Notes under the pieces: generated by a model
Told to the model about the DNA's origin: nothing
The model's input: only the letters and a program-made list of their open reading frames with translations
Database searches by the model: none
Source of the DNA: Albula goreensis
Taxonomy: Eukaryota > Chordata > Actinopteri > Albuliformes > Albulidae
Reading direction: 5' to 3'
Assembly: GCA_022829145.1 (NCBI GenBank)
Contig: CM040751.1
Span: forward strand, 248,001-312,000
Length of the DNA: 64,000 nt
Shown here: one piece after another, positions 5,641 through 62,247 of the stretch
How positions within the stretch are numbered: position 1 is the first letter of the stretch
How the letters are laid out: the number at the start of each line of letters is the position of its first letter
Translations under genes and position numbers: made by a program

Positions 5641-5841
5641 CTTCCTGTTCACCATGAGGCTCTGCTGGTGTATCATCACCTGTACATGTAATAAAAACAA
5701 AGTTGTTAGGAAATATAACATATTTACATCATATAACAAGCAATGCAAACTATCAATGACAATGCAACCACATTCTTACCATTCACATAATCATACACAT
5801 ATACAGTATGCAGAATAACTTAGTATGTTCATAAGACATAC
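5641..5841. other. Flank between piggyBac relic and Gmr1-like element
   Basis: AT-rich sequence with no recognised content. It ends in ATAC, which recurs immediately after the Gmr1-like element (12,961-12,964) and is the likely 4-bp target duplication. Confidence 0.6.
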
Positions 5842-6580
5842 TGTAACAGACAGGCCATTTCCTGGTGCAATCCCCTGATAACCCTGAACGAGTGCCAGGA
5901 TGGACTAGGTAGCCTGTTGGAATTATTCATTATTTTTCTTTTTTTTGTTAATCATAATAATACATTTTATACTTAGTGGATCCCCAAGAACATTTCGGTT
6001 TGCTTGCATACAATTATGGTTGACGTTGTCCTAATGAGAATGGTTTGATCCAGTGACCCAGTGACGCGGCTGGGGTGACGGTATATCCGGTGTGGTTAGT
6101 GCGGCAAAAGCGCGTGTGTGTTTCTGGCTGGCTGGATGTACGCCACTGGAGCGGGACTTTAGAATTCCTGAAGAACACAGACACCGGCATCTACGGTTTC
6201 CCTTGTGTGTGAACACCACCTCTACAACCAACCAATTACCGCAGCTAACCAAAAGGGATCTTTTAGAAAACAAAAACTGAACAAACCGATTGCTGGAGGG
6301 CAGCGTCTGCACCTCGCAACAACCCGAAGACCGGTCTGTCCGTTGCTGAGCGACCAGATAGAGCTGGCCGTTGCAGGAGAAGCTCCGGTGGGGAACAAGG
6401 TAACGTCAACCCTTACTTTTGTGATTGTAAGCAAGCAAACCGAGTGTCTTAGCTGCACGCCGCCTTGGGGAGTACGGAGGTACAATAACTATAACATCAA
6501 CCTAGACAACGCTAACATTAACGGTGGAGGTAAAACTCGGTTAGGCTGAACTTGGTATCTCTGCCCAGGAGGCCATGAAA
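5842..6580 (+). repeat. 5' LTR of Gmr1-like element 1
   Basis: Starts TGTAACAGACAGGCC and aligns along its whole length with 12,218-12,960. The few differences are scattered substitutions and single-base length changes. The primer-binding site follows three bases later. Confidence 0.9.
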
Positions 6581-6583
6581 GAG

Positions 6584-6601
6584 TGGGGGCTCGCCCGGGA
6601 T
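6584..6601 (+). promoter_or_regulatory. Primer-binding site, tRNA-Pro type
   Basis: TGGGGGCTCGCCCGGGAT matches the tRNA-Pro primer-binding site known from murine leukaemia virus at 17 of 18 positions and lies three bases after the 5' LTR. This supports minus-strand priming by tRNA-Pro in this lineage. Confidence 0.8.
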
Positions 6602-7321
6602 CTGAATTGTATTCAACGGGCTTGCTATTGGTAGGCTTTAACATTTGTTGGTACATTAAGGTTGACTTATCTTTTCGTTTGTTTGCGATACCTATGGGAT
6701 TAGCCGTTAAAATTATAACTAAAATGAGGTTGGCTTTGTAGTAGGTTAGTTACGGATAATACAGTTCTTTGTGTTGGGAAAACGTACACGGGCTATTTGA
6801 GCCTGCTAAAGGGCTACACATTGCAAGGTTAGGTAGGTAGTTTAGTACGCGTGTGTAGACCCAAGTGCGAATTAAATGCTGTACCGCTCCTAACATTAAA
6901 GAATTGTGTCCGGTAAAGGTTGCATATCGCTTTTAGCCTGGATTAGCTATAGGAATAAATTTTTCGTAACTAGTGGAACGTAGTGGTGTTGAAATTTTGT
7001 GTTACACGATGCTTGTGTCAGTTATAGCCACTTGATACGCCGGTGAGAGTGGTACGACAGTGTTCTGTGGCGGCACTCCAGAAACTGTCTTGCGGCGTTT
7101 CTAGCCTGCTGAATTGTGGGTTTTTCCCCCTTGTTGTGAGCCTGGTAGTGCTCTTGTTGCACGTGTGGTTCTTCTGTATTTTTGGAGAGTTGAATGCTCT
7201 CTTCTGGCTGCTGCACTTGTTATACGTGTTGAACAGTTTGTAGTTTCGCTCCGGGAATTTTTGTGCTTCAGTGTTGCTGTGATCGGTGTTGTCTTTGGCA
7301 ATTGTTTTGTGAGACACGGTC

Positions 7322-8660
7322 ATGACGAGTGGTAGTTCTGCGAGTGGGATAGTCACATCCCCTGACCTTGCTGGTGGGTTTGAGCTACCTACCGCTGCTC
7401 AGTTTAGGGCTCTTACAAGGCCACAGCTAGTTGCAATGGCTGAGCGGGATGGAATGGAAGTGCCATCCTCGGTGACGAAAAAAGAGCTGGTTGCGCTGGT
7501 GAAGGAGCTGTTCTGTCTGGAGGAACTTTGGGCAGAGCAGAAGGAGGAGAAGGAGCGGCAGGAGAGGTTGGCGAAAGAGGAAAGGGAGCGCCAGTTTGAG
7601 CTTGAAAGGAGGGAGCGCGAGCAGAATTTCGAGCTGGAGAAAATGAAGTTGGAGGTGGAAAAAGTAGCTAGGGAGAGAGGAGTGTTGCCAGAACCAAGTT
7701 TTAATCTGAGCTCTGCTGAGAGACTCCTACCTCAGTTCAATGAGGAGGAGGTAGACATTTTTTTTGACGCCTTCGAACGAGTGGCTACTGAGTTGGCCTG
7801 GCCTCGTTCAAAATGGCCACTGCTGGTACAGCGGGCTCTTATTGGTAAGGCACAACACGCATATGCTGCGTTAGACCTCTCGCTTTCTCTCGATTACGAC
7901 GCTGTAAAAGAGGCTGTGTTAACTGCCTATGGTAGCGTCCCAGATGAGTATCGCCGTAAATTTAGATCCCACAGGCGTAAGGGTGGTGAGTCTCACCTTG
8001 ATCTATTCCGTAGACAACAGATACTTATGGGACGCTGGCTAACTGCATGCAAGGCAGACACTGTGGGGACTCTGACTGAGCTCATTTTAATGGAGCAGTT
8101 CAGGAGCTGTGTGTCACGGGAAATTGACGTGTACATTGCTGAGCGCGGGGTTCAAACTGTGAAGGAGGCAGCAGAGCTTGCAGACACCTGGGAGGTCATC
8201 CATTATGGTGGTATTGGGCGTGGTTATTATGACAAACGAAAGTCTTTTGGCAGCTTGAAGCCTGAGTTGAAGCGGCCTGGTAGCGACCAGCCTGGACAGG
8301 GTGGAGGCTTGGATGGTGCGAAGGCTCACCGAAGTGGTGCTCAACAGGGAGGCGGTGGCCAGCGGCTCCTGAGCGCTTTGTCCGAAACGGATTTAAGTGG
8401 ACCTGGCTCTCGCCAAGACATTATCTGTCATAATTGTCGGCGGCCAGGGCATATTCGCAGTAGTTGCCCCACCCTTAGAGACAGAGCAAACCGTGACCAG
8501 GTTGTTGCTCTGGTGTCAGCTAGCACCCAGAGTTCTGAAGCTGAAAAACAGGTGCACGGTAACAATGTGGAAAAGCTGTTGGTGGATAATGCTTGTTTTG
8601 TGTCACCTGGCTCTGTAGCTCTGGATTGTGCGAGCCCTGGGGTTCCAATACAGATTCTGT
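7322..8660 (+). pseudogene. Gag region with SCAN-like capsid and zinc knuckle
   Basis: A long open stretch begins with an ATG 740 bases after the 5' LTR. The N-terminal part is followed by a highly charged E/K/R-rich coiled-coil (about residues 60-120). Then comes a capsid part whose C-terminal half (about residues 200-290) has the SCAN-domain pattern: a YRRKFRS start, ELILMEQF in the middle and a KEAAELADTWE end. A CCHC zinc knuckle follows (CHNCRRPGHIRSSC, near residue 370). The resemblance fits the published idea that SCAN domains arose from the capsid of Gmr1-like elements. It would package the element RNA. Part of a fossil element. Confidence 0.85.
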
Positions 8661-10360
8661 GAGACACTGGGGCTAGTCAGTCCCTGCTGGTTGCTGGTGT
8701 GTTGGACTTGCCATCCCCTGTACCAGGAAGTCCTGTTGTACTCCTGGCTGGCTTAGGAGGAGAGTTCGGGCCGTATCCGCTAATAGAGGTGTACCTGCGC
8801 TCTGAGTTGGTTAATGGTCCCGTGATGGTGGCTGTTATTGACTCGCTCCCTGTGCCGGGTGTGTCATTATTGTTAGGTAATGACCTGGCAGGTAATAGAG
8901 TTACGGAACCTCCTGTTCTCTCCCCTGAACCACTTAATGTTGTGGACAGAGAAGCTGGCTAAGGAGTTTCCTGAGGTGTTCACTGCATGTGTAGTGACAC
9001 GTGCTCAGGCAAAAGCCCGTGTTCATTCCACTCCATGCGAGGAACAAGATGCCGCAGTAGATTTGCGTGACACATTTATGGCCCACCTGAAACAGACACA
9101 GGAGGACCTACACCTGAGTAGGGAGGCCTGGTTGAAGCTCAGCTTGCAGATGCTGATCTAGCTCCCTTTTCCGTATGGTGGAGGAACCCACCGGGATGCT
9201 GTGCTGTCTGGGGATACTATTTACAGGACAATGTCTTGATGAGACGTTGGCGGCCTCCAAGGATGCCGCTGAGGAATGGAACGTGTTGCAACAGGTAGTG
9301 TTGCCTGGAGGATATCGGGAAGGTGTGCTTAAAATGGGTCACGCTGGACCCATGGCTGGTCATGTGGGAGTAAATCGTACTCTAGAAAGAATCAGACGCC
9401 ATTTCTGGTGGCCAGGTATGAAGAAAAGAGTTCTTGAGTACTGCAGATCTTGTGAACTATGCCAGCGTGGGTAAGGCTCCAGCACAGGCCGCCACCCGTG
9501 CCTCTTAAGCCACTTCCACTTTTCTCTATTCCCTTTACAAGAGTGATGGTTGATTGTGTTGGCCCCTTCCTAAGACAAAGAAGGTATCGAGTATCTCCTT
9601 ACCATACTGGATGTTACCACACGGTTCCCTGAAGCGGTTCCTCAGGAACATTAGGGCCCAAACCATAATTGAGAGCCTCATTCAGTTCTTTTTCGAGGTA
9701 TGGTCTTCCACGGGAGGTTCAGTCTGACCGGGATCAACTTACTTCTACGGTTTTCCAGGGTGTTTTTGAATCAGCTAGGCATTAAACAGGTTTTGTCCTC
9801 AGCTTATCATCCTCAGTCTCAGGGAGCAATTGAACGCTTCCATCGGACTTTGAAGGAGATGGTGAGAGCATGCAGCGATCAGTTCCCTGGGGAATGGGAT
9901 GCTGCCATGCCTTTTCTAATGTTCGCAGTTCGGGATAGTGTTAATGAATCCACTGGCTTTACACCTTTCAGCTAGTCTATGGTCATGAGGTGCGTGGACC
10001 TTTGGGCCTACTAAAAGAGCGTTTAGTTGGTGATAGTGTTCCAGAGGATTCGCTCGCATATGTTGCTCGATTTACTGATCGGCTGCAGGTTGCTTGTGAG
10101 GTAGCCCGGCAGAAGCTTGCGGGTTCAAAGCTAGAATGAAGCACCACTATGACAAGCGGGCTCAGCCATGAGTTTTCGGCTGGGGATAAGGTGCTTGTTC
10201 TGTTGCCAGCAGGGGGTGACAAGCTTGGTGTTCGGTTCGAAGGGCCTTATTCAATTGTAAAGCAGGCTGGAAACTGTGCTTATGTCATCAGCACTCCTGA
10301 TCGCCGTGTCAAGACACGCTTGTGTCATGTGAATTTGCTTAAACCGTTTGTAGGGCGGGA
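8650..10360 (+). pseudogene. Protease and integrase region of Gmr1-like element 1
   Basis: An aspartic protease motif (DTGASQS) opens the region, followed by a flap and a late motif of the ALLGND type (LLLGNDLAG). Near 9,300-9,475 is the HHCC zinc-binding head of a retroviral-type integrase (HAGPMAGHVG, then FWWPGM, then CRSCELC). The catalytic core follows at about 9,540-10,000 (SSAYHPQSQG, then ERFHRTL). A GPY/F-like DNA-binding tail lies at about 10,180-10,340 (FEGPYSIV, then HVNLLKPF). The region would process Gag-Pol and insert cDNA. It precedes RT, the reverse of standard Ty3/gypsy. Broken. Confidence 0.85.
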
Positions 10361-10499
10361 GGCTTCGGCGCCAGTGTGTTTTAATGTGGTGCAGGACCCT
10401 GAGGACTGTGATGAAGAGGTAGGCTTCACTCCTCGTGAGCCAGTCAGTGCTCGCCTTAAGAATACGGAAGCACGGCAAAACCTCCAGATGAGCTTGACT

Positions 10500-11876
10500 C
10501 ACTTGACAGCATCCCCAGTTGAGGACATTGTGGGCTTGGTTGAGTCTTTCCCAGAGTTGTTCAAAGACACTCCAGGTTTGTGGCTGGCGGTTCATGATGT
10601 TGACACTGGGACAGCTGCCCCAATAAAACAGCATGCGTATCGTTTAGCTCCTCAGAAGCGTGCCCTGGTACAGCAAGAGCTTGACTATATGCTCGAAATC
10701 GGTGCAATAGAGCCCACGGTGAGTGAGTGGAGCTCCCCAGTCGTTTTAGTGGTGAGGGAAGGTGCTGCACCTCGCCTGTGCATTGACTACAGGAAGGTTA
10801 ATGCTGTGACACGATCAGATGCATATCCTATCCCGCGAATGGAGGATTGTATCGACCGCATTGGTCAGGCTAAGTGGGTGTCAAAATTCGACCTCTTGAA
10901 AGGGTATTGGCAGGTGCCTCTTACAGACCATGCCAAGGAGGTATCGGCCTTTACTACTCATGACTCCTTGTATGCCTGCAGGGTCTAAGCATTTGGCATG
11001 AAAAATGCTCCTGCTTGTTTTCAGAGGCTGATGAATCAGGTGACCAGGGGCCTGGGCAATGTAGTTACTTACATTGATGATGTGGTCGTGTTCAGTGACT
11101 CATGGGATAGCCACATCGGGCACATTCGGGCGCTCTTTACTCGACTTGCCGAGGCTTCTTTAGTTGTAAATTTACCTAAATGTGAGTTTGGGCAAGGTCA
11201 GGTCACTACTTGGGTCATCGTGGTGGGGCGTGGTGAGTACTTCCACGTTCTGCCAAGGTTAAGGCTATCATGGATCTCCCAGCTCCGCGGAATCGCCGAC
11301 AGCTCATGAGAATTTTGGGCATGTGTGCGGGTTCTACCGCAAGTTTGTCCCTAATTTTGCCACTGTGACTGCTCCACTTACTGACTTGCTGCAGAAGGGG
11401 GTCAAGGGGTGTGGTCTCTAGAGTGTCAGTCTGCTCTGGACGCTGTGAAGGCGATTCTTGTATGTGAACCCGTGTTGGCTGCACCGGACTTCTCACAGCC
11501 TTTCTGCCTCGCAGATGCCTCCGATGTAGGAGTAGGAGGTGTCCTCCTTCAGGCTGGAAGTGATGGTGTTGAGAGGCCGGTAGCATATTTTACCAAAAAA
11601 CTGAATCGCCACCAAAAGAACTACTCCACCATTGAGAAGGAGGCTTTGGCCTTGGTACTAGCAGTACAACACTTTGAAATATACGTGTCCAGTGTTGTGG
11701 GTGACGTTGTGGTCTATTCGGATCACAATCCGCTCACGTTCCTAGCCAAGTTTCAGAGCTCAAATGCACGTGTCTTTAGATGGAGCTTAATTTTGCAGCC
11801 ATATGGTCTGAAGGTGAAACACATTGCTGGTAGGGATAATGTCATTGCGGATGCCCTCTCCAGGAGTGGCACCTGA
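10500..11876 (+). pseudogene. Reverse transcriptase and RNase H of Gmr1-like element 1
   Basis: RT motifs appear in order: a YRLAPQK approach, WSSPVVLV, CIDYRKVNAVT, then KFDLLKGYWQVPL, and the catalytic YIDDVVVFS box near 11,070. RNase H follows from about 11,490 (LADASDVGVGGVL), with NYSTIEKEALALV, YSDHNPLTFL and a final DALSRSG near 11,870. The stop after that motif closes pol. This is Ty3/gypsy RT by the YIDD box and the RNase H layout. Broken. Confidence 0.88.
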
Positions 11877-12205
11877 AATAGGATGGCAGTGTTTCTAGTT
11901 TTTTTGGTTGCGCTGGTCATTGGGAGTTCTTGCTGGGAGCTTGGTGTATGTAAAATTGGCCAGGAGCCCTTTGTGTTGATGAGTGCAGATTTAGTGTCTG
12001 CATATTTTCTCCATTTTGATGTTTCCTAGATGTGATTTTTCTAAGTAGATGTGTGGTGTTAGTCTATCAGGTGGTGGCAGGCGGAAATGTCTGTCCGTTG
12101 TTTTTTTACCAAAAATTTAAAAAAATATAAAAAAAGGATAAAAACATGGGAAAGGTTGGAAAAAAAAAAAAGTGAAACTGTGTGATTTCTTTAATTTTTG
12201 GCTTA

Positions 12206-12217
12206 TGGGGGGGGTAC
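12206..12217 (+). promoter_or_regulatory. Polypurine tract of Gmr1-like element 1
   Basis: A run of eight G followed by TAC lies directly before the 3' LTR, where plus-strand DNA synthesis starts in LTR elements. Confidence 0.7.
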
Positions 12218-12960
12218 TGTAACAGACAGGCCATTTCCTGGTGCAATCCCCTGATAACCCTGAACGAGTGCCAGGATGGACTAGGTAGCCTGTTGGAATT
12301 GTTCATTATTTTTCTTTTTTTTGTTAATCATAATAATACATTTTATACTTAGTGGATCCCCAAGAACATTTCGGTTTGCTTGCATACAATTATGGTTGAC
12401 GTTGTCCTAATGAGAATGGTTTGATCCAGTGACCCAGTGACGCGGCTGGGGTGACGGTATATCCGGTGTGGTTAGCGCGGCAAAAGCGCGTGTGTGTTTC
12501 TGGCTGGCTGGATGTACGCCACTGGAGCGGGACTTTAGAATTCCTGAAGAACACAGACACCGGCATCTACGGTTTCCCTTGTGTGTGAACACCACCTCTA
12601 CAACCAACCAATTACCGCAGCTAACCAAAAGGGGATCTTTTAGAAAACAAAAACTGAACAAACCGATTGCTGGAGGCAGCGCCTGCACCTCGCAACAACC
12701 CGAAGACTGGTCTGTCCCCGCTGAGCGACCAGATAGAGCTGGCCGTTGCAGGAGAAGCTCCGGTGGGGAACAAGGTAACGCCAACCCTTACTTTTGTGAT
12801 TGTAAGCAAGCAAACTGAGTGTCTTAGCTGCACGCCGCCTTGGGGGAGTACGGAGGTACAATAACTATAACATCAACCCTAGACAACGCTAACATTAACG
12901 GTGGAGGTAAAACTCGGTTAGGCTGAGCTTGCGGTATCTCTGCCCAGGGAGGCCGTGACA
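12218..12960 (+). repeat. 3' LTR of Gmr1-like element 1
   Basis: A near-identical copy of 5,842-6,580. It ends GTGACA and is followed by ATAC, the same four bases that precede the 5' LTR. Confidence 0.92.
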
Positions 12961-23399: not shown

Positions 23400-24578
23400 G
23401 ACATATGGCAGACAGCTTGGACGCTGGAAGCAGGCATGGATGTCTCCTCCTCACCAGAATCATTGTTGTTAGCATGAGGACACCGTGACAATGCATCCGC
23501 ATCAATGTTTTGTTTTCCAGGGCGATATTTCAGGCTGAAATCATACATTGACAGCTCCGCCAACCATCTATGTCCTGCTGCGTCCAACTTAGCTGTGGTT
23601 AGGACATATGTTAACGGGTTGTTGTCTGTGTGAACCTCAAATTTTACTCCATAGAGGTAATCATGCAGCTTGGTGGTGACAGCCCATTTCAAAGCCAGAA
23701 ATTCCAGCTTATGCATGGGATAATTTTTTTTTCTGGTGGAGAGAGGCTTCGACTGACAAATGCAACCGGATGTAAACCTTCTCCTTGGTCCTGATAGAGG
23801 ACACCTCCCAAACCATCTCTACTTGCATCAACATGCAAGACATAAGGCAGCTTTGGGTTGGCAATTGCTAGGACAGGTGCCTCTGTAAGACTTTCCTTTA
23901 ATGTCTCAAAAGGTTTCTCACAGTCTTCATTCCACCTTGCCCCAAACGGCTCTGAGGGGTAGTACCACTCTTTTGCTTCCATGTCCGTTTTTGAGTTCTC
24001 TTTCTCTTTGGTGTCCTTTTTAATTTTAGTCTTTCTGTCTGGCCTTCCAGCCACAATACAGCCCTGTAGTAGGTGATTGAGCGGATGACACACTCTGGAG
24101 AAATCTTTCACAAACCGTCTGTAATATCCACAGAACCCAAGGCAAGAACAGAGAGCAGTGATGTTCTCTGGGCGTGGCCACGATTTCACAGCTTCGATCT
24201 TTGAAGGTTCTGTAGCAATGCTGGTGCTAGAAACAACATGACCAAGGTAGGTTACAGAGGGGCAGCAGAACTGACATTTATCCAAGGATAATTTGAATCC
24301 CTCCTCCTTTAATCTGTCAAGCACTTTAAGAAGGCGCTACTCATGTTCCTCCAATGTTCTCCTAAAAACGATTACATCATCAAGATACACTAACAGTTCC
24401 AGTAGGATCATATCACCGACAGTCCTCTCCATAACATGTTGAAATGTGGCTGGTGCTCCACAGATGCCTTGCGGCATTCTCTCAAATTGATAACACCCTG
24501 CTGGCCAGGTAAATGCCGTTTTTTCTTTGTCAGCAGCACTTAAAGGGACCTGATAGTAGCCGCTTCTGAGATCAAGCA
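23400..24578 (-). pseudogene. RT (3' part) and RNase H of the gypsy element
   Basis: RT shows SGYYQVPLSAADKEKTAF, FERMPQGICGAPATFQ and the catalytic LVYLDDVIVF box near 24,370-24,400. The connection domain follows (LSLDKCQFC, then TYLGHVVS). RNase H lies near 23,440-23,850 (LHVDASRDGLGGVLYQ; LEFLALKWAVT; HTDNNPLTYVL; ADALSRCPH). The earlier RT motifs continue on the other side of the CACTA insertion at 31,371. Fossil. Confidence 0.88.
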
Positions 24579-25250
24579 CACTGTAATAAAAAATCGGTAT
24601 ATTTTACGGTAAAATACTGGCAGCTGTGGTTGCCAGAATTTTACCGTAAAAAATATGGTGACCATGTATAAGACATTACGGTATTGGTTTTATAGAACTT
24701 TAAATTCCAAGGTTGAAAATAGTGTTATTTACAGGAAATTACTATTAAAATAATGATATATTGTAAACCTATTTACGGTAATTTTCTGTAAAAATAACAG
24801 GTAGACTGTGAACTATTTTACAGTAAACTACCATAATAAATTTGGCAACCATGGATAAGAAATTACGGTATGCTTTTTTAAGGAACTGTAAATTTCATGG
24901 TTGAAAACTGTTTTGTTTAGGGTAAATTACTATATAAAAAACTGAGCTATTGTAAACCTATTTACAGTAATTTTCTTTAAAAATAGCAGCTACATTATAA
25001 ACCTTTTTATAGTGAACTAAAAATAAATCTGTAAAATTTACAGTAAAATACTAGCAGCTGTGGTTGCCAGAATTTCTCCGTAAAAAATACAGTGATAAAA
25101 TATACAACATTATGGTACACCTTTTTGGCAAGAGTAAATTTCTCAGTTGAAAATATTTTTTGTTTGTGGTAAATCTCGATGGAAAAAATGATATATTATA
25201 AACCTAATATAATGTAAACCTTCAAATCAACCCCAATGCAAAAAGCTTTG
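24579..25250. repeat. Subterminal repeats of the CACTA element
   Basis: About three diverged units of roughly 190-245 bp lie in tandem. Landmarks repeat: GTTGAAAA near 24,711, 24,901 and 25,147; TAAACCTA near 24,764, 24,956 and 25,200; GCAGCTGTGGTTGCCAGAAT at 24,632 and 25,054. Short inverted motifs (ACGGTAAAA / TTTTACCGT) recur. Such subterminal arrays are transposase-binding regions in CACTA elements; binding here is inferred. Confidence 0.7.
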
Positions 25251-25371
25251 TAAACTTACTGTTAGTACCATAATAACTTCAAATTACTGAGTATTCCGAT
25301 AAACCCGACTCAAACTTTAATCAAGTCAAGTGATACTCAGATACCACACCTCTTTTAAACATCTTTCCTCA

Positions 25372-25510
25372 CAGTCATCTTTAATCAAATAAACACTATT
25401 AAACAAACTGCATGGAGCAATGTTCCCTGTGACACTACATAATTTCCACTGTGACCTTTGTGTTGGTCTCAGTGAGGCCAAATTGTCTGATCAAATGCTC
25501 TGAAAAGTTC
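25372..25510 (-). repeat. Second copy of transposase 3' coding sequence
   Basis: This stretch aligns with 29,878-30,030 in the transposase gene: AAACTGCATGGAG, GTTCCCTGTGACA, ACTGTGACCTTTGTGTTGG and CCAAATTGTCTGA are shared in the same order and orientation. About 50 bases are missing from the middle of this copy. It is therefore an internal duplicate or the remnant of an earlier related insertion. Confidence 0.8.
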
Positions 25511-26154
25511 CTTCTCATAGCCAAAAACAAGAGGCCAAAACTAGAAAACTCCTTCTATGGAATAGAAAATTAGAATTGAGTAATAATTGTTTAAAGTAAC
25601 TGAAAGAGCAGCTTCTCACAAATAAATATATAAAAATTTCACTGAATTGCTGTTGCTTTAATCTTATTTTCAAGTAATATCTTCAAATTGTTTGACCTTT
25701 GACCCTTTTAGTAAAAGTACAGCCTCTAACACAAATTGCAAAAAAACAAAAAAAAAAAAAATTGCTGCTTATTGTTCATGTAATCAAAGCAATAACAATT
25801 CCACAGAAAATGCACAATGACCCAGTTCACATAACTTTAACTACTAATCAAGTCAGTTTCAGTGTTTCAGTGTCTTTAGTCCTCTTATGACAGGAAAATG
25901 TGAATATCTTTGAGTACTGAACATAAAACATTAGAGGACGTCCCCTGGAACTTTGAAAACAATGATCCACATTTTCACCATTTCTGCCATTTAATGGACC
26001 AAACCAATCAACCAATCAATAATCAATTAATCAAGAAAATAACACACAGATCAACTGATTATGAAAAGTATGATTAGTTGCAGCCTTTGTGTACACCGTT
26101 TCATACCTGTTCATACAGATGGCACTGTGCAAGAGGTCAGACTTAACAGTTCAG
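25511..26154. other. CACTA internal non-coding DNA
   Basis: AT-rich sequence between the duplicated transposase fragment and the last exon of the SAMD3-like gene. It includes a poly(A) run at about 25,740-25,760. No gene recognised. Confidence 0.5.
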
Positions 26155-28081
26155 TTACCATGTCCCTCTCCAGTCCTGGTCGGCGAGATCTGCGATGAGG
26201 GTGAGGACTCTTGGGTTCACCGACAGCTGCTTCTTGTTCTTCTTTGTTTCAACTTTTGTGCCCCTCTCAGGATTGATCATGAAGAAACACCTTTGAACAT
26301 AATTTCATAATCAACCACTAAAAATACTATTTTTTTCTAAACAAGGAATTAAAAAAAAATTAATAACAATAAAAATAATAAACATGTGTTTACCTCTGAA
26401 GGAACTCAAGTGTTGAGCCCAGATCAACAGGATAGTGAATATTCAGGCAATAGTATGCTCCAAACATGAGACAGATGGCAGAGATGAAGTTGGGGATGTG
26501 GTCATTCACAATCTTGCCATCTACACTCACCATGAAGTGTGTCGAGGCATAGCAGGAGGTTCCTGCAAAGAACAGAAAGGTAAAAGAGCAGACCAGCCAT
26601 TACCATCCAAACTCAGTCTTATCAAAATTGTTAGGCTTTGAAGCAGCACTTCAAAAATGACAATGCATAACAGTTTTCATGCAATACTTCTTAACATTAG
26701 CTTAGTGAAACTGATCAACACTTACCACATACAATAATACATGGATTCACAGGCAGTCTTTCCAGTGGTACGTCTTTTGCCACACATGTCTGGTCAACAT
26801 AGTGGAAGAGGTTCTCCTCTTTGTCATCAAAGTAGGAAAGAAAAGGAGAACCATGTCTTTAACATCCTCCGAGCAGCCCTCCAACTGTCCTCTCAGAATG
26901 TCAAGTTTTGTGACTGCCTGAAGAATTCTTTTGCTCTTCTCTGCACAAATGGTTCTCATGAAGTCCAGAAGCCGTTTTCCCTTTTTTTCGATATTGGTGA
27001 GGAAAGTCTCTTTCAGCGATACCCCAGTGAGCTCTTGGAAGTGTACTGTCATGCCAATCTCTTGGAATAAAAAAGGCCACTCCTCCAGGAGGGATTGCAG
27101 CTCTGTTCCCTTGTTTATGTCTTTGCGTTGGGAGTAGTAGGTACACTTCATCAGAGTTTTTACCTCGTCTGGGCCAAAGGCAGTCTGTTCACTGAGCGCT
27201 TTCATTTTGTCTTTCTTTTCCTGTTGGCTTTCTGGTGTCTCACTCACTGGCATATATTTCATATCCCACTTTATACAGCCATAGGTGTCCTGCATAGCTG
27301 CCCGTTGTTCAGCTGGGATTTCATCAGTGTCACAGTCATCTGACCCCTGTTTGCGTTTTTTTATCCTTGGTGCTGAAGACCGTTTCACATTTTCGATTCG
27401 GGCTTGTAACTGCTTTACTAGTGAGTGATATCCTAGTCCAACTACATCACCTGTGATGACATCTTGCAGTGACTGTGGATGTTTTGCAACAAGTTTTTTG
27501 GCAACTTCTGTGGAGGCTTTGGTACTTGGAGAGGCACAAACATTCATCATGTCAGTGACGACAATCCGGACCATTTCTCTACGTACCCGTGGACTTGGCC
27601 TTTTCCCTCTCTCTAAACACTGCATCAAGTCTTCAGGAAACTTCGTCCATGGGATCTGGAAGTTGTCAACCCAAATTGTCTGCCGCGGCAATCCAGCAGT
27701 TGGACGGCGAGGAGAGACTGACTGAAGAGCTCGTTGAGGAGGTTGGAGAAGACAGCGCTGACTGGCTATGGCCTTCATTAGTTTGTGCTGTAAAGAATGG
27801 AATAAACAAAATGTATGTAAATAATGTTTTATCTTTGGTTACAGACCTACTTCTAAAAATGTTTACTTACTGGTTTGTTTCCAGGCAGCTACCAATCTTC
27901 TGGCCTGAATTGGTCTCAGTGTAGAAAGGAGATCAGCTTCCTGAATGAATGGAAAATCCTCAGTGGTCTCTACTCCCAACGATTGAAGTGTCTCCACTAA
28001 AATATCCAAGATTGAGGCTGCGAGGTCTGGCAACACCTTTGTGATAGCACTGCGTATGTTGATTTGCTCTGCATCATCCAT
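26155..28081 (-). CDS. SAMD3-like gene carried by the CACTA element (damaged)
   Basis: Four exons on the minus strand, each with GT/AG borders: 27,871-28,081; 26,726-27,787; 26,394-26,562; 26,155-26,290, with a TAA stop at 26,155. Exon 1 encodes MDDAEQINIRSAITKVLPDL and a region ending RPIQARRLVAAWKQT, typical of the SAM-like N-terminus of fish 'SAMD3-like' proteins. Exon 2 gives a Ser-rich linker, IPWTKFPEDLMQCLERGKRP and WPFLFQEIGMTVHFQELTG. Exon 3 gives DGKIVNDHIPNFISAICLMF and PVDLGSTLEFLQR. Exon 4 ends LADQDWRGTW. Junction phases fit, but exon 2 has two frame changes (between the Ser-rich linker and VDNFQIPW near 27,670-27,720, and near 26,840 before the YFDDKEENLFHYVD stretch), so it is probably dead. 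These proteins are multicopy in fish; their function is unknown. An ordinary host gene trapped in the element is less likely. Confidence 0.7.
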
Positions 28082-29555
28082 TTCTGAGTATGAAAGTGAA
28101 TAAGGCACAATTAACCCCAGAATGACAGTCCAAGACAGTTAATAATGTGATAACACTGTGTTTCAAAGGAACTATTTGGTATCCATCTTTAATGTAAGAT
28201 GGCAATGGATAGAAACACTAGCGGAACAAATCAGTACCGGGCCGGGGGCGGGGCACATGACCGGGCCCTTTAAACCCAATAAAGCTCATGATAACATCGC
28301 TTTACAACATACACATGCCCGCAACAGCGGGGCTTACAAGCACACATACTACATTTTTGACACAAGCAACTGCTGAGTCCATAACATCACCGCTATACAG
28401 TTGAGAGAGAAAGAAGAGGATATAAGCTGGGCTACTAGAAATAACAACCGTCAACAGTTTACAACAGCTCACACATTGGGCCTTATTCATCAATATTTTC
28501 CCTCCACTCTGCAGTCCCTCTCTAACGTCATTTTACCTTGTATAAAAATAACGAGAATGATTGTACTAAGAACTAAGAACCGATATAGTAGCAGGAAGAG
28601 TACTAGAAGCAGTCAAAGAACAGCAGAACTTTCTGTTCAAAACCTGAAATTGTCATTGAAGATCATTATACCTGACCAGCATTGCAGTGTCATTATATCA
28701 GGAAAGTTATTTCAAAATGTCAAGTCCGGTAAGGTAGCTAACCGGCAAGCATGCTGTATTCTATGGATAATTTTTTCAACTACTTTAAAATTGCAGCGGC
28801 AGTTATAATTGTTGCTTAGTAACGTTAGCAACATTAACACGCTCAACACTCCACCTATGTGAAGTCAATGGAGGCCGTTTTTTAAAGCGTTATAGTTTAA
28901 AAATGAATCTATCGCTCAGAAAATACAAGCAACCTGACCAGTATATTTACGCCAAGTTCGGTATGTCTACCTTAAAAAACTGTCGGGAGAGATACGTCCG
29001 GAAGAACCAGGAATAATAATAATATTTAGAAGAAGAAGTAAAGATTCTATAGAAGAGCAGTAGTTTGTGCCTTCGGCAAGCAAACTAATTAATTGTATTC
29101 ATCAGTATTACACAAATGAAGCCGTTTGACCTGTTTTAATGTTGAATCCAATAGTGATTTTATATAAGACTTTGAACCGTTATAATGTTACGATATTACT
29201 GCCAAATAATTTGCTACTCATTTTTAATCAAATAATCATTTTTAATCAAATAAAAAATGAGTGAATGGAAAAATAAAAGCAACAACACGAAAAACAAGCT
29301 TTACAGCCGTGTTTTTCCATTTACGCACGCAATACGAACATATTAGAGCACTCGTTGAAATTCCTTCGGATCCTACAAACTGATATACGAAAACTTTGAT
29401 AAATCCCACATTTTTTGCGTAAATACACTTGGAGAAAATATCGGCGATCCACTTGTAAATTTGCACGTAATGAAGTTAAATGTGAGAGTGAAAATAAAGC
29501 CGGTCATGCAGCACGTCATTTTATTCATATTTTACACCTAACTACATCACTGAAG
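28082..29555 (-). other. CACTA internal region between the two genes
   Basis: Contains the likely 5' leader and promoter side of the SAMD3-like gene. A GC-rich patch lies at about 28,236-28,270 (CCGGGCCGGGGGCGGGGC). Sequence at 28,605-28,710 recurs at about 60,236-60,345 inside the Harbinger element. No other gene is seen. Confidence 0.5.
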
Positions 29556-29639
29556 TCAGTCTTGTATAGTTTTTACCAACCATGACTCATTCTGCCTGGG
29601 GTAACATATATAAGCACACATATATCGCACATTGAGCGG

Positions 29640-29755
29640 TGTCGTCGGGAGGGGGCCCGGTCCCCCCAGCCTGGAACAGAGGCTACGGGCCCCCCTGGGC
29701 CCCGGGCCGAGGGCGCGCCGCCCTCCCAGCCCCCCCGGAAACTCCGCCCCTGGAT
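29640..29755. repeat. Very GC-rich insertion end (hAT-like)
   Basis: A block close to 80% GC in AT-rich surroundings, rich in GGGCCC/CCCCCC. Its right edge, read on the minus strand, begins CAGGGGCGGAGTTTCC, similar to hAT termini. No opposite terminus was found. It follows directly after the recognisable transposase C-terminus (LIDFYPG), and the open frame simply reads on through it. Confidence 0.45.
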
Positions 29756-31370
29756 AGAAATCAATCAAGTCACTGATGTTCAGACACTGCATTTTTTCAT
29801 TGTCTTTCCTCACTGAGTAAAGGTGGTACCCAGAAAGGAATTCTGCTGTGTACACTGACATCAGAAAATGAACAGTGTCATTTTTAATCAAAATGAGTAC
29901 AAGTTCACCAAACTGCATGGAGTCAGTGTTCCCTGTGACAAGGAATTGTCCTTTTTTATATGATGTTCCCTTATAGAGAATTTCTACTGTGACCTTTGTG
30001 TTGGTCTCTGTGAATCCAAATTGTCTGACTGCATCTTGAATGGATTCACTGTATAGTCCTGAGTAAAATGGAGAACCATCTTTATCTTGGAAAACAGGCT
30101 TGCTCATTGATCCTGCTGAAAGATACGCCTGTAACAGCTGATGTCTTTCAGACAGAGTAAGGCAGAGGTTTTTGAAATTTTTCAAATTTCTTGCACATCT
30201 TTTGAAGTAACTGTGCTTACTTTCAAAGCGCATTGTCCATAGTCTGATCAGGGGCCCAAATTTCAGGATCATTTCTGGGTAATGACGTAAATTATGATGC
30301 TTTGGTTTCAGGCCAGTTTCTGGGAATAGAGTTTTTCTTGACTCCAAATATTCTTGAATAAGAACGTCAAGGTATGCAACCTGAGGCACAGAGATTTTCT
30401 GTGCACATATCATGTCCACAATGTCTTTTAGCTGCAGAGTCAACTGCCACACATCATGTGCTGTATCTTTAACTCTGTCACCAATTATGAGAGGCAACAG
30501 CCTAAGAAAATTTGAATTCTGTACAGCTTGACCTGAGAGTTTAAGTCCATGGGGGCTGACCTCACATGGTTTTGTAGAAGCATCAGAACCACAGTATTTG
30601 AACTGTTTAATGCGTCGATTCAGAATGGAGTAAGTGAACCAAGTCTTTTTCTTTATAAAATACGTAAGATACAGTGCCACATCATAAGACAAAACACCCT
30701 CAAATATGTCATGTCCCAGACAAGGTGGCAAACCTGGCAGACAGACATTGAAGTATTTCAAAGAATTAAATACAGAGTTACACTTTACTCCTTCCACATC
30801 TGGTGATGAACCTTCAGTCTGCAGGCAATCAACAGCAGCACTATAGTTGTTGATGGTTCTCTCTGGTCCACACAGATTTGGATCACCCTGAAAGTCAGAT
30901 CTGTTGATTAGACAGTACCTGCAGAAATATTTTGAGGAGCTGAAATTTTCAGAGAATCCACCGATGCAATGCGAGCCCAAATTATCTCCAGCAATGCAAT
31001 ACAAGGTTCCCTTGACTGTTTCACTTGATCCAACAATCCCATTCTCCTCCAATTCCTTCAAGTCTGTTATTAGTTCAGAGAACACCTTAGCATGCCCAAA
31101 CGCTTTGAAATCTTTCTCTCTACACAACAACACAAGTGACATGTGGTCTGTGTCAGACCGTACATGCAGTGGTAAGTTGGCAACAGATGCATACACAGCT
31201 AAAACTTCATGTCTTGTCTTGGCAGAGCCTAAAGGGTTAACTACTTCAAAGGCATCCTGGTATAGAACTAACTTCACACATGATGGATTTTGAGCAAAAA
31301 AATCATTGTTTTTGAATATCTGACCATCACTAATGTCATTTAGAACATCTGAAGGAGACTTGGGGGAGTG
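29755..31370 (-). pseudogene. Tnp2-type CACTA transposase, N-terminally truncated
   Basis: One uninterrupted frame of about 540 residues. It opens with LNDISDGQIFKNNDFF and LVLYQDAFEVVNPLGSAKTR, the middle of Tnp2-family (Pfam Transposase_21) proteins. Next come LSLVLLCREKDFKAFGH and ITDLKELEENGI, then a Cys/His cluster (CRYCLINRSDF), and PPCLGHDIFEGVLSYD with a nearby H/E pair. PKHHNLRHYPEMILKFGPL and RFESKHSYFKRCARNLKNFK are the well-conserved late motifs. The N-terminal half of the family is missing because the open frame begins at the insertion junction. The only upstream ATG at 31,374-31,376 belongs to the gypsy flank. It would have cut and joined DNA at CACTA ends. The long intact frame suggests relatively recent coding constraint. 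Confidence 0.75.
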
Positions 31371-32931
31371 AACCATTTGCTACCGCTCAGGCAGGTCAGG
31401 GCATCTTCCACATAAGGGATGGTGTATTGGTCAGGAATTGTCCTCCTGTTTAACGTCCTGTAGTCCACACACATACGTATGGTTCCATTTTTCTTGCGAA
31501 TCACAACGATAGGGGACACATAGGGGCTTCTGGATTCTGAAATTATTCCTGCTTCCTTCAGATCATTTAAATGTTTTCTCACATCTTCCAAATCACTTGG
31601 AGGTAAGCATCTGGAGCGTTCTCTCAATGGCTTGTCATCTTTCACTCGAATGCTGTGTTGTGTACTCATCAAACTCATTGCAGGAGAAAACCCTCTTTCC
31701 TCTCCATCATTTTCCGACATAGTCTCTCCTTCCACTCAGGAGGCACAGGAGAATCTGTGAAGTTGAAAGACGAGGGAGACAGTTGAGATGTGGGTGGCTT
31801 ATACACATTATTTTCAGGGACTGCATTTATGACATCCACCCGGTACAGGTGAGCAATTTGCATGCCACATTTCAATGTCACAGAATGATTTGACACATTT
31901 CTCAAAGTGACTGTCATGCGACGACAATGGACAGCATTTGGTTTTTCAACAACAGGCATCACCAGAAGTTCTTCTGGGAAACAACCATCCTCTGGGCGGT
32001 CTATAAGGATAGCTTGACCAGAAGGACTGCCAGAAAACTTTGGAATGCCAACAACTTTTACAACCCCACCAGGTACCAACACAAAGGACTTCTCTTGAAT
32101 GAACCAGACTGTTCCTCTTTTTGGATCAGCTGTGTCATCTGGAGTGTCCTGAAACTTCTCATAAGCCTTTTATTACTGGGTGCACAGACAGGGTATGTAG
32201 GAAATTGTCTCCATTTTGTGTTCTGCAAGAATGGAACAATCTCCTAACTATGGAGGTGTTTGTGCCAACCACAATGGAAATTTCACCTTTCATGGCCAAA
32301 TCTGGACACACAAGCACAAATGTTTCTATGGTCTCAGCTACTCAAGTTTCAAGCACATATAACCATCATATGGATATTAGTCTGCACTGAGGCCCCAAAT
32401 CTCCAGCCATTCAATAGGGGTCAAGGGCAGGTGCTTCAGATACTTGTCATAAAAGGAGCGATACAGCAGAGTACCTTGGGACCCACTATCAAGCAAAGCT
32501 TTGGCATAAATGCCCTCAATTTGTACAGAGACAATAGAGATAGGTCCAATTAAACCCTCAGGCAGATTAGCCTTGCTTTCTTTTGCCATGTCACACTTTG
32601 TGGAACGTGTTTTCCCCCGGAGCGTCAGGCCGTTCCTCTACTGAGCTCCTGGGAAGTTTCCCATTGGCTGTTTTGTTTTCAGGAGACACTTATTCACTTT
32701 CCTGAGATTCTCTGGGTTTTCACATTCCCGCTGGAAGTGACCATCTTTACCACACTTGTAGACATCAGCACCATACTGAGGTCTGGGAGCTCTCTCCTTT
32801 CCACCTGCATATTTTCCAGCAGCCTGTGTGTGTTTCTGGGATACATGCTGTGGTGAACTTCCAGGAGCCTCCCGCTTTACCATTTGTTTGTTGGCGGGTA
32901 GCACTCCAGATGGAGTGGTCTGATTTGCCAA
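31371..32931 (-). pseudogene. Gag knuckle, protease and early RT of the gypsy element
   Basis: Right to left: a CCHC knuckle (CGKDGHFQREC, about 32,740-32,780); protease with the active-site box LLDSGSQGTL (about 32,480-32,510); a protease-RT linker (VVKVVGIPKFSGSPSGQAI and onward); then RT approach and fingers, RSPYVSPIVVIRKKNGTIR and MCVDYRTLNRRTIPDQYT, to the edge of the CACTA insertion. Fossil, part of the element listed at 20,498-33,040. Confidence 0.85.
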
Positions 32932-35879: not shown

Positions 35880-36930
35880 CCTACTGCCAGCAGGTGCTGT
35901 CCCTGGCTCATGAGAACCCGTGTTCTGGTCATTTAGGGTTACAAAGACTTACTACAGAGTCTTAAAACACTTCTTTTGGCCTGGGTTAAAGTCCACAGTG
36001 ACTCAGCATTGTAAAATGTGCCACACCTGTCAGGTTACTGGGAAACCAAATCAGGTAATTCCACCTGCTCCTTTCTGTCCTATACCTGTCATTGGCAAAC
36101 CCTTTCAGCATGTGGTTGTGGATTGCGTGGGACTGCTACCAAAGTCAAAATCTGGCAACTAATTTCTGCTCACTGTCATGTGTGTTGCTACAGTTTTCTA
36201 GGCAATCCCTCTACGTACCATCACTGCCAAGTCTGTTGTCAAAGCTTTACTTAGGTTTTTCTCTACCTTTGGTTTCCCGAAAGTTGTGCAGACCGACCAA
36301 GGTACTAACTTCCTTTCGAGAATATTCAAACAGGTCCTCCAGTCTCTGTCCATTACGCACAAGGTCTCCAGTGCTTATCACCCTGAAACGCAAGGTGTCC
36401 TGGAGCGCTGGCATCAGACGTTCAAGTCAGTCTTACGTAAGTACTGTTTGGATACAGGGAAATGTTTGGATGAGGGGGTTCCATTGGCTGTATTTGCCCT
36501 TAGAGAAACAGTACAGGAATCGCTTGGGTTTAGTCCCGCTGAGTTGGTTTTTGGACATACCGTGCGGGGTCCTCTAAAAGTGCTGAAAGAGAAGCTAATG
36601 TCTGATTTGCCTCCAAAGTCTAATGTGCTGGACTATGTTAGTCAGTTCAAAGAGCGTTACATATCATGCTTGCTCTCTCGCTAAGGAAGCGCTGTCCACC
36701 TCTCAGAGCGTGATGAAAAGTCGCTATGACAAGAAGGCTGTGGCTCATTCTTTTAAGCCAGGAGATCAAGTCCTAGTTTTGCTGCCCATTCCTGGTTCTG
36801 CACTGTCCACTCGGTTTTCCGGTCCAGTATTCTGTGGAGGATAAACTTAGCGACAGTAACTATGTCATACAAACTCCTGACCGTAAATGTCCTGACCCTA
36901 TTTGTCACATTAACATGCTCAAAACGTTCC
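35880..36930 (+). pseudogene. Integrase region of Gmr1-like element 2
   Basis: A zinc head (FFWPGLKSTVTQHCKMCHTC) and the catalytic core (QHVVVDCVGLLPKSKSGN, then QTDQGTNFLSRIFKQVLQSL, SSAYHPETQGVLERWHQT, AVFALRETVQESLGFSPAEL) are followed by a GPY/F-like tail (FKPGDQVLVLLP). The core is well preserved relative to the rest. Fossil. Confidence 0.85.
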
Positions 36931-38875: not shown

Positions 38876-41800
38876 GGCTGCTTTCTCCAACCCCTTTCAG
38901 ATGTAACCACTCTCTTTCAGTTCTGCCTCTAGTGACCTTCTCCAGGTGTTTCTAGGTCTTTACTGGCTCTTCTTTCCCTGTGGATTCCACTTTAGTGACT
39001 GTCGAGTTACATTGGTTATGGATTTCCAGAGAATGTGGCCCAACCAGCCTCACTTCCTTCTCCTGATCTGGCCCTCTACCCTCACTCAGTCTGTTTCCTT
39101 CCACAGATCTTCATTCCTAATAGTGTCTGGCCAATGTATCAGCAAGATGGTCCGCAGGCACTTGTTGATAAAAGTCTGGAGTTTGCTGTTTGATGTAATT
39201 GTTGTCCACCAAGTTTCTGAGCCATAGAGGAGTACTGGAGGCTGACCTTGCTTTCCCTGTTCTTGCCTGTATGTCAGTTTCTGTCCCCCCCATCCCTCCC
39301 TATGGCACTGCCAAAATATGTGAAGCTCTCCACTTCCTCCAGCTCTACTCCGTCCAATCTGATGCAGTCATCACTGGTACAGTTTTTGCACATGACCTTG
39401 GTCTTGTCTTTATTGATGGTAAGGCCTGTCTTGGCCAATGTGGCTGCTAGTTGGGATGTCTTGGATTGCATCTGCTGGTGTGCGTGAGAGGTTAAGGCTA
39501 TGTCATCTGTAAAGTCCAGGTCATCAAGCTATGACCAAGGTGTCCACTAAATTCCACAGTTCTGCCCCTCCATTGTCTTGCACATAATCCAGTCCACTGC
39601 TAGCAGGAAGAGTAGGGGCGAAAGCAAGCAGCCCTGTCTGACTCCAGTTTCCACTGTGAAGGGGTCTGTGAGGCAACATGTATGATGGATACAAACTTTC
39701 CAGGTATACCATACTGTGCCATCAGAGCCCAGAGAGTGCTGCACTCGAGACTGTCAAAAGCCTTCTGGAAGTCTATGAAGGTGAGGTACAAAGAAGAGTT
39801 CCGTTCCAGTGACTGCTCTACTATGATGCGTAAGGTGGCTATGTGATCTGTGCAGGATCTGTCTTGCCTGAAACCTGCCTGCTGGTCTCTTAGCTGCATG
39901 TCTAGGGCTCTCTTTATCCTCTTGAGGATGATCCTGCTCAGGGCCTTTCCTGGAACTGAGAGCAGCACGATCCCCCTGTAGTTGTTGCAGCCCTTCAGAT
40001 TTCCTTTCGTAGGCAGTTTTACCAGATGTCCCTCATTCCAGTCTTCTGGTACCCTATCTTCCTCCCATACTTGGCCAAACATCTGATACAGCATCTTGGT
40101 TGACATCTTTGTATCTGCCTTCAGTGCTTCTGGTGGTATGCCATCTGGACCTGGAGCTTTGCTGTTCTTCTGTTTCTGTATGGCTTTCTTGATCTCCAAT
40201 TTGCTCAATCTGTTTGTATTCACTTGAAAGGGTTGTGCTGTTGGAGGTATGTCTGCAGGTTCCATTGGTGGTGACCTGTTCAGTACTTCCCTGAATTGTT
40301 CTGCCCATCAGGTCAGCTGAATCTCCTGTTTTGTCAGAGTTTTACCCTGCTTGTCTAGGATTGGTCTGTCTGCTGGCGGACCTTTGCGAGCTAAAAACCA
40401 GGTGGTATCATAGAGCTCCTTCAGGTTGTGCTTGGCTGCTGTTGCTTCTGCTTGTTTGGCTAGGTTGTCTATATACTGCTGTTTGTCTTTCTTGGTGCTC
40501 TTTCTAACCTCCTTGTTTGCCTTTGAGTACAGCTCTTGGGCTTTTGCCTAAGCTGCTCTTGTCTGGCTGTTGTGAATTTCCTGCTTTCTCTCTTTTCTTT
40601 CTTGGATTTTCTTGAGTGTTTTGGCTGTGATCTATTCTTTATACTGTCTTGTTTTCCTACCAACATACTCCTCTGTTTTTTCCAACCACACCTTCTTCAT
40701 CCCTTGCCATCTCTCTTTTTGAAGGTTTATGGTTCCTCTTCCAGGTCGCCCAGAGCCTGGAATTTGTTTGAAAGGCTGATCCTGAACTGTTCCGCTACAG
40801 TTTTGTCCTGTAGCAGGGCAACGTTGTGCCTGGTACTGGACCTTTTGGTGTTTGTACTGAACCTCTTGAATTTGAGCCTAAGCTTACATGCTAGGAGGTA
40901 GTGGTCTGATGCTACATCCTCTCCATGTTTTACCCAAAAATCATGAAGAGATCGTCTGAAATTTTGGCTGATGCAAATGTGATCAATCTGGTTTTCTGTT
41001 CTGTGGTCTGGGGAGACTCAGGTGGCTTTGTGTACTCTCTTGTGTGAAAACACACTCCCTCCTATGACAAGGTTGGTGAAGGCGCAGAAAGTGGCAAAGT
41101 GCTCCCCGTTCTCATTCATCTCCCCCAGTCCATGTTTTCCCATGATCAGTTCCATTCCTGTGTTGTCTTTGCCAATCTTTGCATTGACATCCTCTGTTAG
41201 CAGAATGACATCCTTCTTTCGTTGTTTGTCTATGACTTGTTTTAGGCTTTCGTAGAAAGCATTCTTGACTTCTAGATTGGCATCAGTGGTTGGTGCTTAG
41301 CATTGAATGGCTACCAGTTTCCTGTATTTTGTGTAGAACCTTGCAGAGATGATTCTGGAGCTGACTGCCTCAAATTTCCTTCAAGGCCCTGATTGCTTCT
41401 CTGGATAGCATGAAGCCCACTCCTTCTGTGAGTGCGGCATCCTGTTGATAATAGCCAGAGTAGAGTATTGTTTCCCCTGTTGCCAGTTGTGTTTTCCCTG
41501 CTTGAGTCTGACGTGTCTCGCTCAGACCTAGCAGAGTAAGCTTGCACTTCTTCATTTCTGCAGCTATCTGAGCAGCTTTTCCGGCTTCATACATAGTTCT
41601 AATGTTCCATACTCCTATGTTAGTGGTATGCTTGGGTGTGAGAAGGGGAATTGGCTGTATGACTTCCTCTTGGCTTTCATTGTACAGCGTCATGTGTGTC
41701 TTAGTAGGAGCACCCTCTTGTCCCCAGACAGAGTGTTGTAAGTTCGTTGCAGACGTTTCTGTAATCACTAAGTATCCACTGAGTGGGTGATTGGCCCATC

Positions 41801-46910: not shown

Positions 46911-62247
<15,337 letters not shown>

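Follow-up and report, generated by a model that had tools for sequence, protein, structure and literature searches.

We analyzed a stretch of 64,000 nucleotides from the fish Albula goreensis (GCA_022829145.1, contig CM040751.1, positions 248,001 to 312,000; hereafter the window, numbered from its first letter), in which a minus-strand gypsy-type reverse transcriptase (RT) frame is split at 24579/31370, with 6.8 kb of other DNA in between. This interruption, proposed in an earlier note on the same DNA, is borne out by the downstream RT piece (24337-24578, minus strand, VLDLRSGYYQ...), with a Pfam RVT_1 match of E 4.2e-17 on 24337-24603. The upstream piece (31371-31735, minus strand) reaches the border at 31370 with ...SGSKWFT, and reading resumes with VLDLRSGYYQ across the insertion; a Pfam scan of the upstream piece alone (31340-31735) gave no RVT_1 match, and its order and the look of its motifs suggest that it belongs to the split gypsy RT. 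In minus-strand order, 5' to 3', the insertion holds a Tnp2-type transposase fragment, a hAT-like element, the rest of the transposase, a SAMD3-like gene, a second transposase tail, subterminal repeats, and a CACTG end, and we regard the locus as a broken, composite CACTA-type remnant with the SAMD3-like gene in the second-gene position.

The transposase fragment (29753-31370, minus strand, within open reading frame [ORF] 29556-31379) runs without a stop over 542 codons, the gypsy codons at its start counted, and its N-terminal part is missing, since it starts directly at the gypsy border. We observe the catalytic residues D at 31254-31256, D at 30984-30986, and E at 30222-30224, with a D-D spacing of 90 and a D-E spacing of 254 residues. 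A C(2)C motif (from 30923, FCRYC) stands past the second D, and HHNLRH, an H(3)H motif with its second H at 30294-30296, stands ahead of the E. According to an excerpt of PMC12730594, C(2)C and H(3-4)H between the second D and the last E are common to EnSpm, Mirage, Chapaev, and Transib. The fragment thus carries the D, D, E set with C(2)C and H(3)H of EnSpm/CACTA (CMC group) transposases, in agreement with the Tnp2-type fragment that had been noted here before, and its filing as EnSpm on these motifs is likely, not proven. With the hAT-like element taken out in a script and its flanks joined, 586 codons can be read without a stop, 3 of which belong to gypsy, and the frame continues through the remaining 3' part of the transposase (28074-28215, minus strand, FYPLPSYIKDGYQIVPLKHSV...) into the SAMD3-like start region. 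The first stop in this frame is a TGA at 28076-28074, 3 bp inside the SAMD3-like coding start.

Directly behind the transposase and on the same strand lies the SAMD3-like gene, a member of a group of genes that is presumably multicopy in fish. Its four exons were delimited by splice borders: exon 1 from the ATG at 28081-28079 (27871-28081), exon 2 (26726-27787), exon 3 (26394-26562, AG before and GT after), and exon 4 (26158-26290, AG before, translated as CFFMINPERG...VLTLIADLAD...). They are joined by three GT-AG introns with fitting splice phases and sum to 1,575 nt, a multiple of 3, or 525 codons, which are followed by TAA. The four-exon gene of the earlier note is therefore recovered in its structure but not in its reading frame, because exon 2 holds two frame breaks, with a Ser-rich part in frame 2, the WVDNF... 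core in frame 0, and a YFDDKEE... part again in frame 2. These breaks cancel in length and restore the frame set by exon 1, with the core left out of frame. An intact four-exon gene was rejected on these grounds. The copy is broken and, barring possible assembly errors at these places, could not encode the complete protein.

The SAMD3 relationship is carried by the exon 2 core, which in a one-to-one alignment with an unverified human SAMD3 reference sequence shows 23% identity over 245 columns (E 3e-7) and is homologous, by that reference, to the region behind the SAM domain. In the shuffle control the core had no match, and two other pieces had weak matches (E 0.17-0.61). No significant match to the human reference is seen for exons 1, 3, and 4 or for the last part of exon 2. 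Exon 1 is weakly SAM-like, with a sub-threshold match to Pfam SAM_TNK (E 0.031), one match in a PDB sequence search (best E 3.1), and a single-sequence structure model too weak for interpretation (mean predicted local distance difference test score [pLDDT] of 66.3); the PDB sequence search with exon 2 gave nothing better than E 0.48. By the look of its letters, CTTTCATACTCAG (28084-28096, minus strand) resembles a splice acceptor, and it ends 2 bases ahead of the SAMD3-like ATG, a position that would, as a hypothesis, permit a shared upstream exon.

The hAT-like element (28216-29752, 1,537 bp, ends CA...TG) splits the transposase tail at a distance of 134 bp from the SAMD3-like ATG and is flanked on both sides by an 8-bp duplication, GATAGAAA, the length that an excerpt of PMC12730594 gives as usual for hAT target duplications. 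Its ORF 28377-28802, scanned by itself, has no Pfam match, and the element may be non-autonomous. It came in later than the transposase tail that it splits, contrary to the earlier assertion that the contents of the insertion are known to have arrived together. A 91-bp part of it (28609-28699) is 89% alike to 60237-60326 elsewhere in the window.

At the other end of the insertion stands the CACTG terminus (24579-24583, minus strand; CAGTG on the minus strand), the sole border that looks like EnSpm/CACTA, where the sequence reads ACAGTG and then TGCTTGATC. It is followed by AT-rich subterminal repeats (24584-25220), whose copies have diverged to 79.1% (206 columns) and 74.6% (189 columns) likeness and which contain the motif TTTACNGTAA, found on the plus strand at seven positions in the window, six of them within 24603-25037. 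Between these repeats and the SAMD3-like gene we find a second transposase tail (25209-25508, minus strand), decayed by stops and deletions and, like the hAT-like element, absent from the earlier note. It was found by blastn, which matches it to 29979-30028 (92%, 50 bp) and to 29877-29940 (83%, 64 columns), and by alignment. A wide local alignment of 30200 to about 28142, with the hAT-like part removed, against 25664-25209 scored 213.5 (100 letter shuffles: mean 101.6, maximum 130), and a narrower one (25508-25209) scored 164.4; outside a well-matched core (25374-25490) the match is weak.

Taken as a whole, we tentatively read the locus, with a probability of about 0.4, as the 3' remainder of an old EnSpm/CACTA element that entered the gypsy RT gene with a SAMD3-like gene already placed downstream of its transposase, in tandem and in the same orientation. 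The element would have lost its 5' half at or after insertion; the hAT-like element would later have split the transposase tail close upstream of the SAMD3-like start, and the gene would have decayed through its two frame breaks. A resident second gene is favored by the shared strand, by the completeness of the gene from ATG to stop, and by the transposase frame that stays open into the SAMD3-like start region. We prefer a gene that joined before this insertion rather than here, because the upstream transposase frame is unbroken and the second tail is decayed; set against the stop-free upstream fragment, the decayed tail makes the arrangement seem older than this copy. At the same time, the second tail weakens the notion of a joint arrival and fits either time of joining. 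The order, strand, and spacing of the parts, the splice sites, the catalytic motifs, the subterminal repeats, the nested element, and the frame breaks can all be read from the sequence. The gene presumably travelled with the element, and any function for it is likewise a matter of presumption.

Several observations weigh against this reading, the first being that it draws on a single copy. At its right border, the insertion is cut inside the transposase coding sequence, and the 5' end of the element is missing: the minus strand reads TTCACTCCCCCAAG, in which TTCAC(T) supplies gypsy Phe-Thr codons and CCCCCAAG belongs to the transposase reading frame. CACTG is present at the left border only, and not as CAC..GTG termini at both ends, so that CACTA ends on both sides of the insertion are not supported; the left terminus and the right border have only CACT in common. 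Among 22 inverted repeats of at least 16 nt, none pairs the two borders, and a second terminal repeat is missing. A target-site duplication of 2 to 5 bp is not seen either, with differing 2-bp (CA/AA) and 3-bp (GCA/AAC) flanks, an absence that is expected because one end of the element is lost. The transposase matches Pfam Transposase_21 (PF02992) below threshold (E 0.014, 15 bits versus a cut-off of 28.6, residues 23-116), and its 542 codons contain no match to the motif I and box A patterns of PMC1636069, an excerpt of which (section 9) places motif I of the Transposase_21 domain in most elements and box A in eumetazoan elements. This motif set is older and smaller, and we weigh it less heavily than the combination of D, D, C(2)C, H(3)H, and E. 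Expression of the second gene by splicing is predicted from genomic sequence, and no relative was found in the searches of prokaryote, viral, phage, and plasmid collections. In a simple layout of transposase, partner, and 3' end, no second tail would stand between gene and CACTG terminus, as one does here. Finally, CpG depletion differs between the transposase (observed/expected 0.17, 11 CpG) and the SAMD3-like part (0.35, 32 CpG), a weak hint of different histories; the values are 0.44 for the CACTG end and 0.91 for the hAT-like element.

A right-hand CACTC was considered as a terminal repeat and rejected, as it overlaps codons of both gypsy and the transposase. What we see is a truncated CACTA remnant, not a full element, and the CACTA element is old and damaged and sits inside another mobile element. 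What remains of the earlier view is a SAMD3-like gene within a CACTA-derived insertion; joint arrival is not supported, and neither are CACTA ends on both sides, so that the observation is partly confirmed and its interpretation partly supported.

A second tail placed between gene and CACTG terminus suggests a composite or the outcome of a capture. Probably, the ancestral element ran from transposase to subterminal repeats, and the SAMD3-like gene and a further transposase tail were probably inserted between these by capture, recombination, or nesting. Two separate arrivals would account for the two diverged tails and for a right border without a terminus: two EnSpm elements, one contributing tail and CACTG end and the other transposase and SAMD3-like gene, could have nested or recombined, or the SAMD3-like stretch could have arrived alone, in a window with several other mobile elements. 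The divergence of the tails speaks on both sides. The best-kept 55-nt block has 6 differences, distributed 2/0/4 over codon positions, which would be expected between two once-working genes and so fits separate arrivals, whereas over the whole tail alignment the differences are even across codon positions (18/92, 19/91, and 22/92), the pattern that a drifting copy would leave; both counts are too small to decide. Since, moreover, no second terminus is discerned between the parts, the subterminal motif within the insertion is confined to 24603-25037, and the coding parts lie on one strand and in one order, we consider separate arrivals unlikely. The two tails also bear on the idea that the SAMD3-like stretch is a host pseudogene at a place where mobile elements piled up by chance. 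The frame breaks are the sole point in its favor. Against it, the stretch is enclosed by two transposase tails and, farther out, by the two pieces of the gypsy RT gene, so that it can only have come in by insertion, which makes a chance neighborhood highly improbable.

Pack-type transposons capture genes in plants, and the same structure could come from an element that took up a host SAMD3-like gene once, with its transposase tail duplicated at the capture borders, as a passenger with no role in transposition. Direct copies of the transposase tail do flank the gene, its retained introns imply that DNA and not mRNA was taken, its frame breaks suit a gene useless to the element, and the unlike CpG depletion of transposase and SAMD3-like part agrees with such an origin. 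However, a complete gene, ATG and stop included, begins right where the open transposase frame ends, which is tight for a random capture, and the presumed host source is not seen; we therefore judge a captured passenger rather unlikely. This one copy is compatible both with a resident transposon gene and with a pick-up.

Returning to the resident tandem gene that we prefer, the mechanism that we think likeliest is that intact relatives of the element would use one promoter, at the 5' end that is lost here, to drive both products. The transposase would cut at the CACTG termini, and splicing to the acceptor immediately ahead of the SAMD3-like ATG would yield the second protein. By analogy with TNPA of plant Spm, this protein could serve as an accessory factor that binds the subterminal repeats or controls the promoter. 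That fish SAMD3-like genes are CACTA partners as a rule is plausible and unproven. The further proposal that a lineage of vertebrate EnSpm/CACTA elements has the fish SAMD3-like family as its second gene, expressed by splicing from the transposase unit, and that mammalian SAMD3 is its tamed descendant, strikes us as decidedly doubtful. If SAMD3-like genes do ride CACTA elements as a rule, many fish "host" genes would be transposon genes and vertebrate SAMD3 would gain a testable origin; if not, the locus is an ordinary case of one gene capture or composite in a decayed transposon.

The collections open to a search for relatives comprised prokaryote genomes, viral contigs, phages, plasmids, and Escherichia coli, and misses there are uninformative on the fish hypothesis. 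In viral contigs, 17 stretches matched a transposase pattern and 3 matched SAMD3-like exon 2, with none confirmed, and three degenerate patterns had 0 matches each. In genome contigs, 14 stretches were picked up with SAMD3-like exon 2, again with none confirmed. The plasmids had no match to SAMD3-like exon 2 and the phages none to the transposase. Two stretches matching a transposase pattern in the genome contigs, in two contigs titled as bacterial metagenome-assembled genomes, were rejected as chance (best tblastn E to the transposase 0.23 and 0.13).

The window has a G+C content of 42%, and no Rfam match at gathering score was found across it. It also contains a long terminal repeat (LTR) element at 5839-12958 (plus strand), with 97.6% identity between its ends (5839-6578 and 12215-12958) in a 746-column alignment. 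One of its ORFs (7313-8659) encodes a SCAN domain (E 9.3e-11), with a zinc knuckle that narrowly misses the cut-off, and another (10140-10985) has integrase C-terminal domains ahead of RVT_1, an integrase-before-RT order that we take to be that of Gmr1-like Ty3/gypsy elements. Further retroelement pieces are an integrase core (rve, 36202-36681, plus strand, E 9.2e-10) of another retroelement and an RVT_1 piece at 39603-40307 (minus strand, E 4.6e-15). At 49133-50247 (minus strand), two ORFs with tyrosine-kinase pieces (PK_Tyr_Ser-Thr, E 2.7e-11 and 2.3e-21) probably belong, as exons, to a receptor kinase gene of the host, presumably Eph-like.

With respect to known systems, the literature covered (titles and abstract openings, few subscription journals, Repbase outside the scope) held no tie of SAMD3-like genes to transposons. 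In a parrotfish study (PMC11258905), a gene named samd3 neighbors elf3, an observation that carries no weight in the present reading. The likeness to vertebrate SAMD3 is limited to the alignable exon 2 core (23% over the 245 columns, human reference unverified) and differs in the unmatched exons 1, 3, and 4 and exon 2 end, in an N-terminus that is weakly SAM-like, and in the broken frames. Pack-CACTA and similar gene-capturing transposons likewise hold an intron-containing gene within a transposon, but here the gene is complete and abuts the transposase, and the host source is not seen. EnSpm/CACTA elements of the CMC group share with the insertion the D, D, C(2)C, H(3)H, E transposase, the CACTG end, and the subterminal repeats; they differ in that the 5' end, the second terminal repeat, and the target duplication are missing here and a SAMD3-like gene and a second transposase tail are present. 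An excerpt of PMC1636069 describes, for maize Spm and, by cDNA clones, for Schistosoma SmTRC1, a second protein made through alternative splicing from two tandem ORFs, and reports no conservation between the second products of S. mansoni and plant TNPA. Compared with the maize tnpA/tnpD pair and SmTRC1, the second protein here is SAMD3-like and is predicted from genomic sequence, but the layout is alike, in that the second gene shares the strand of the transposase, the ORFs are in tandem, and introns are present.

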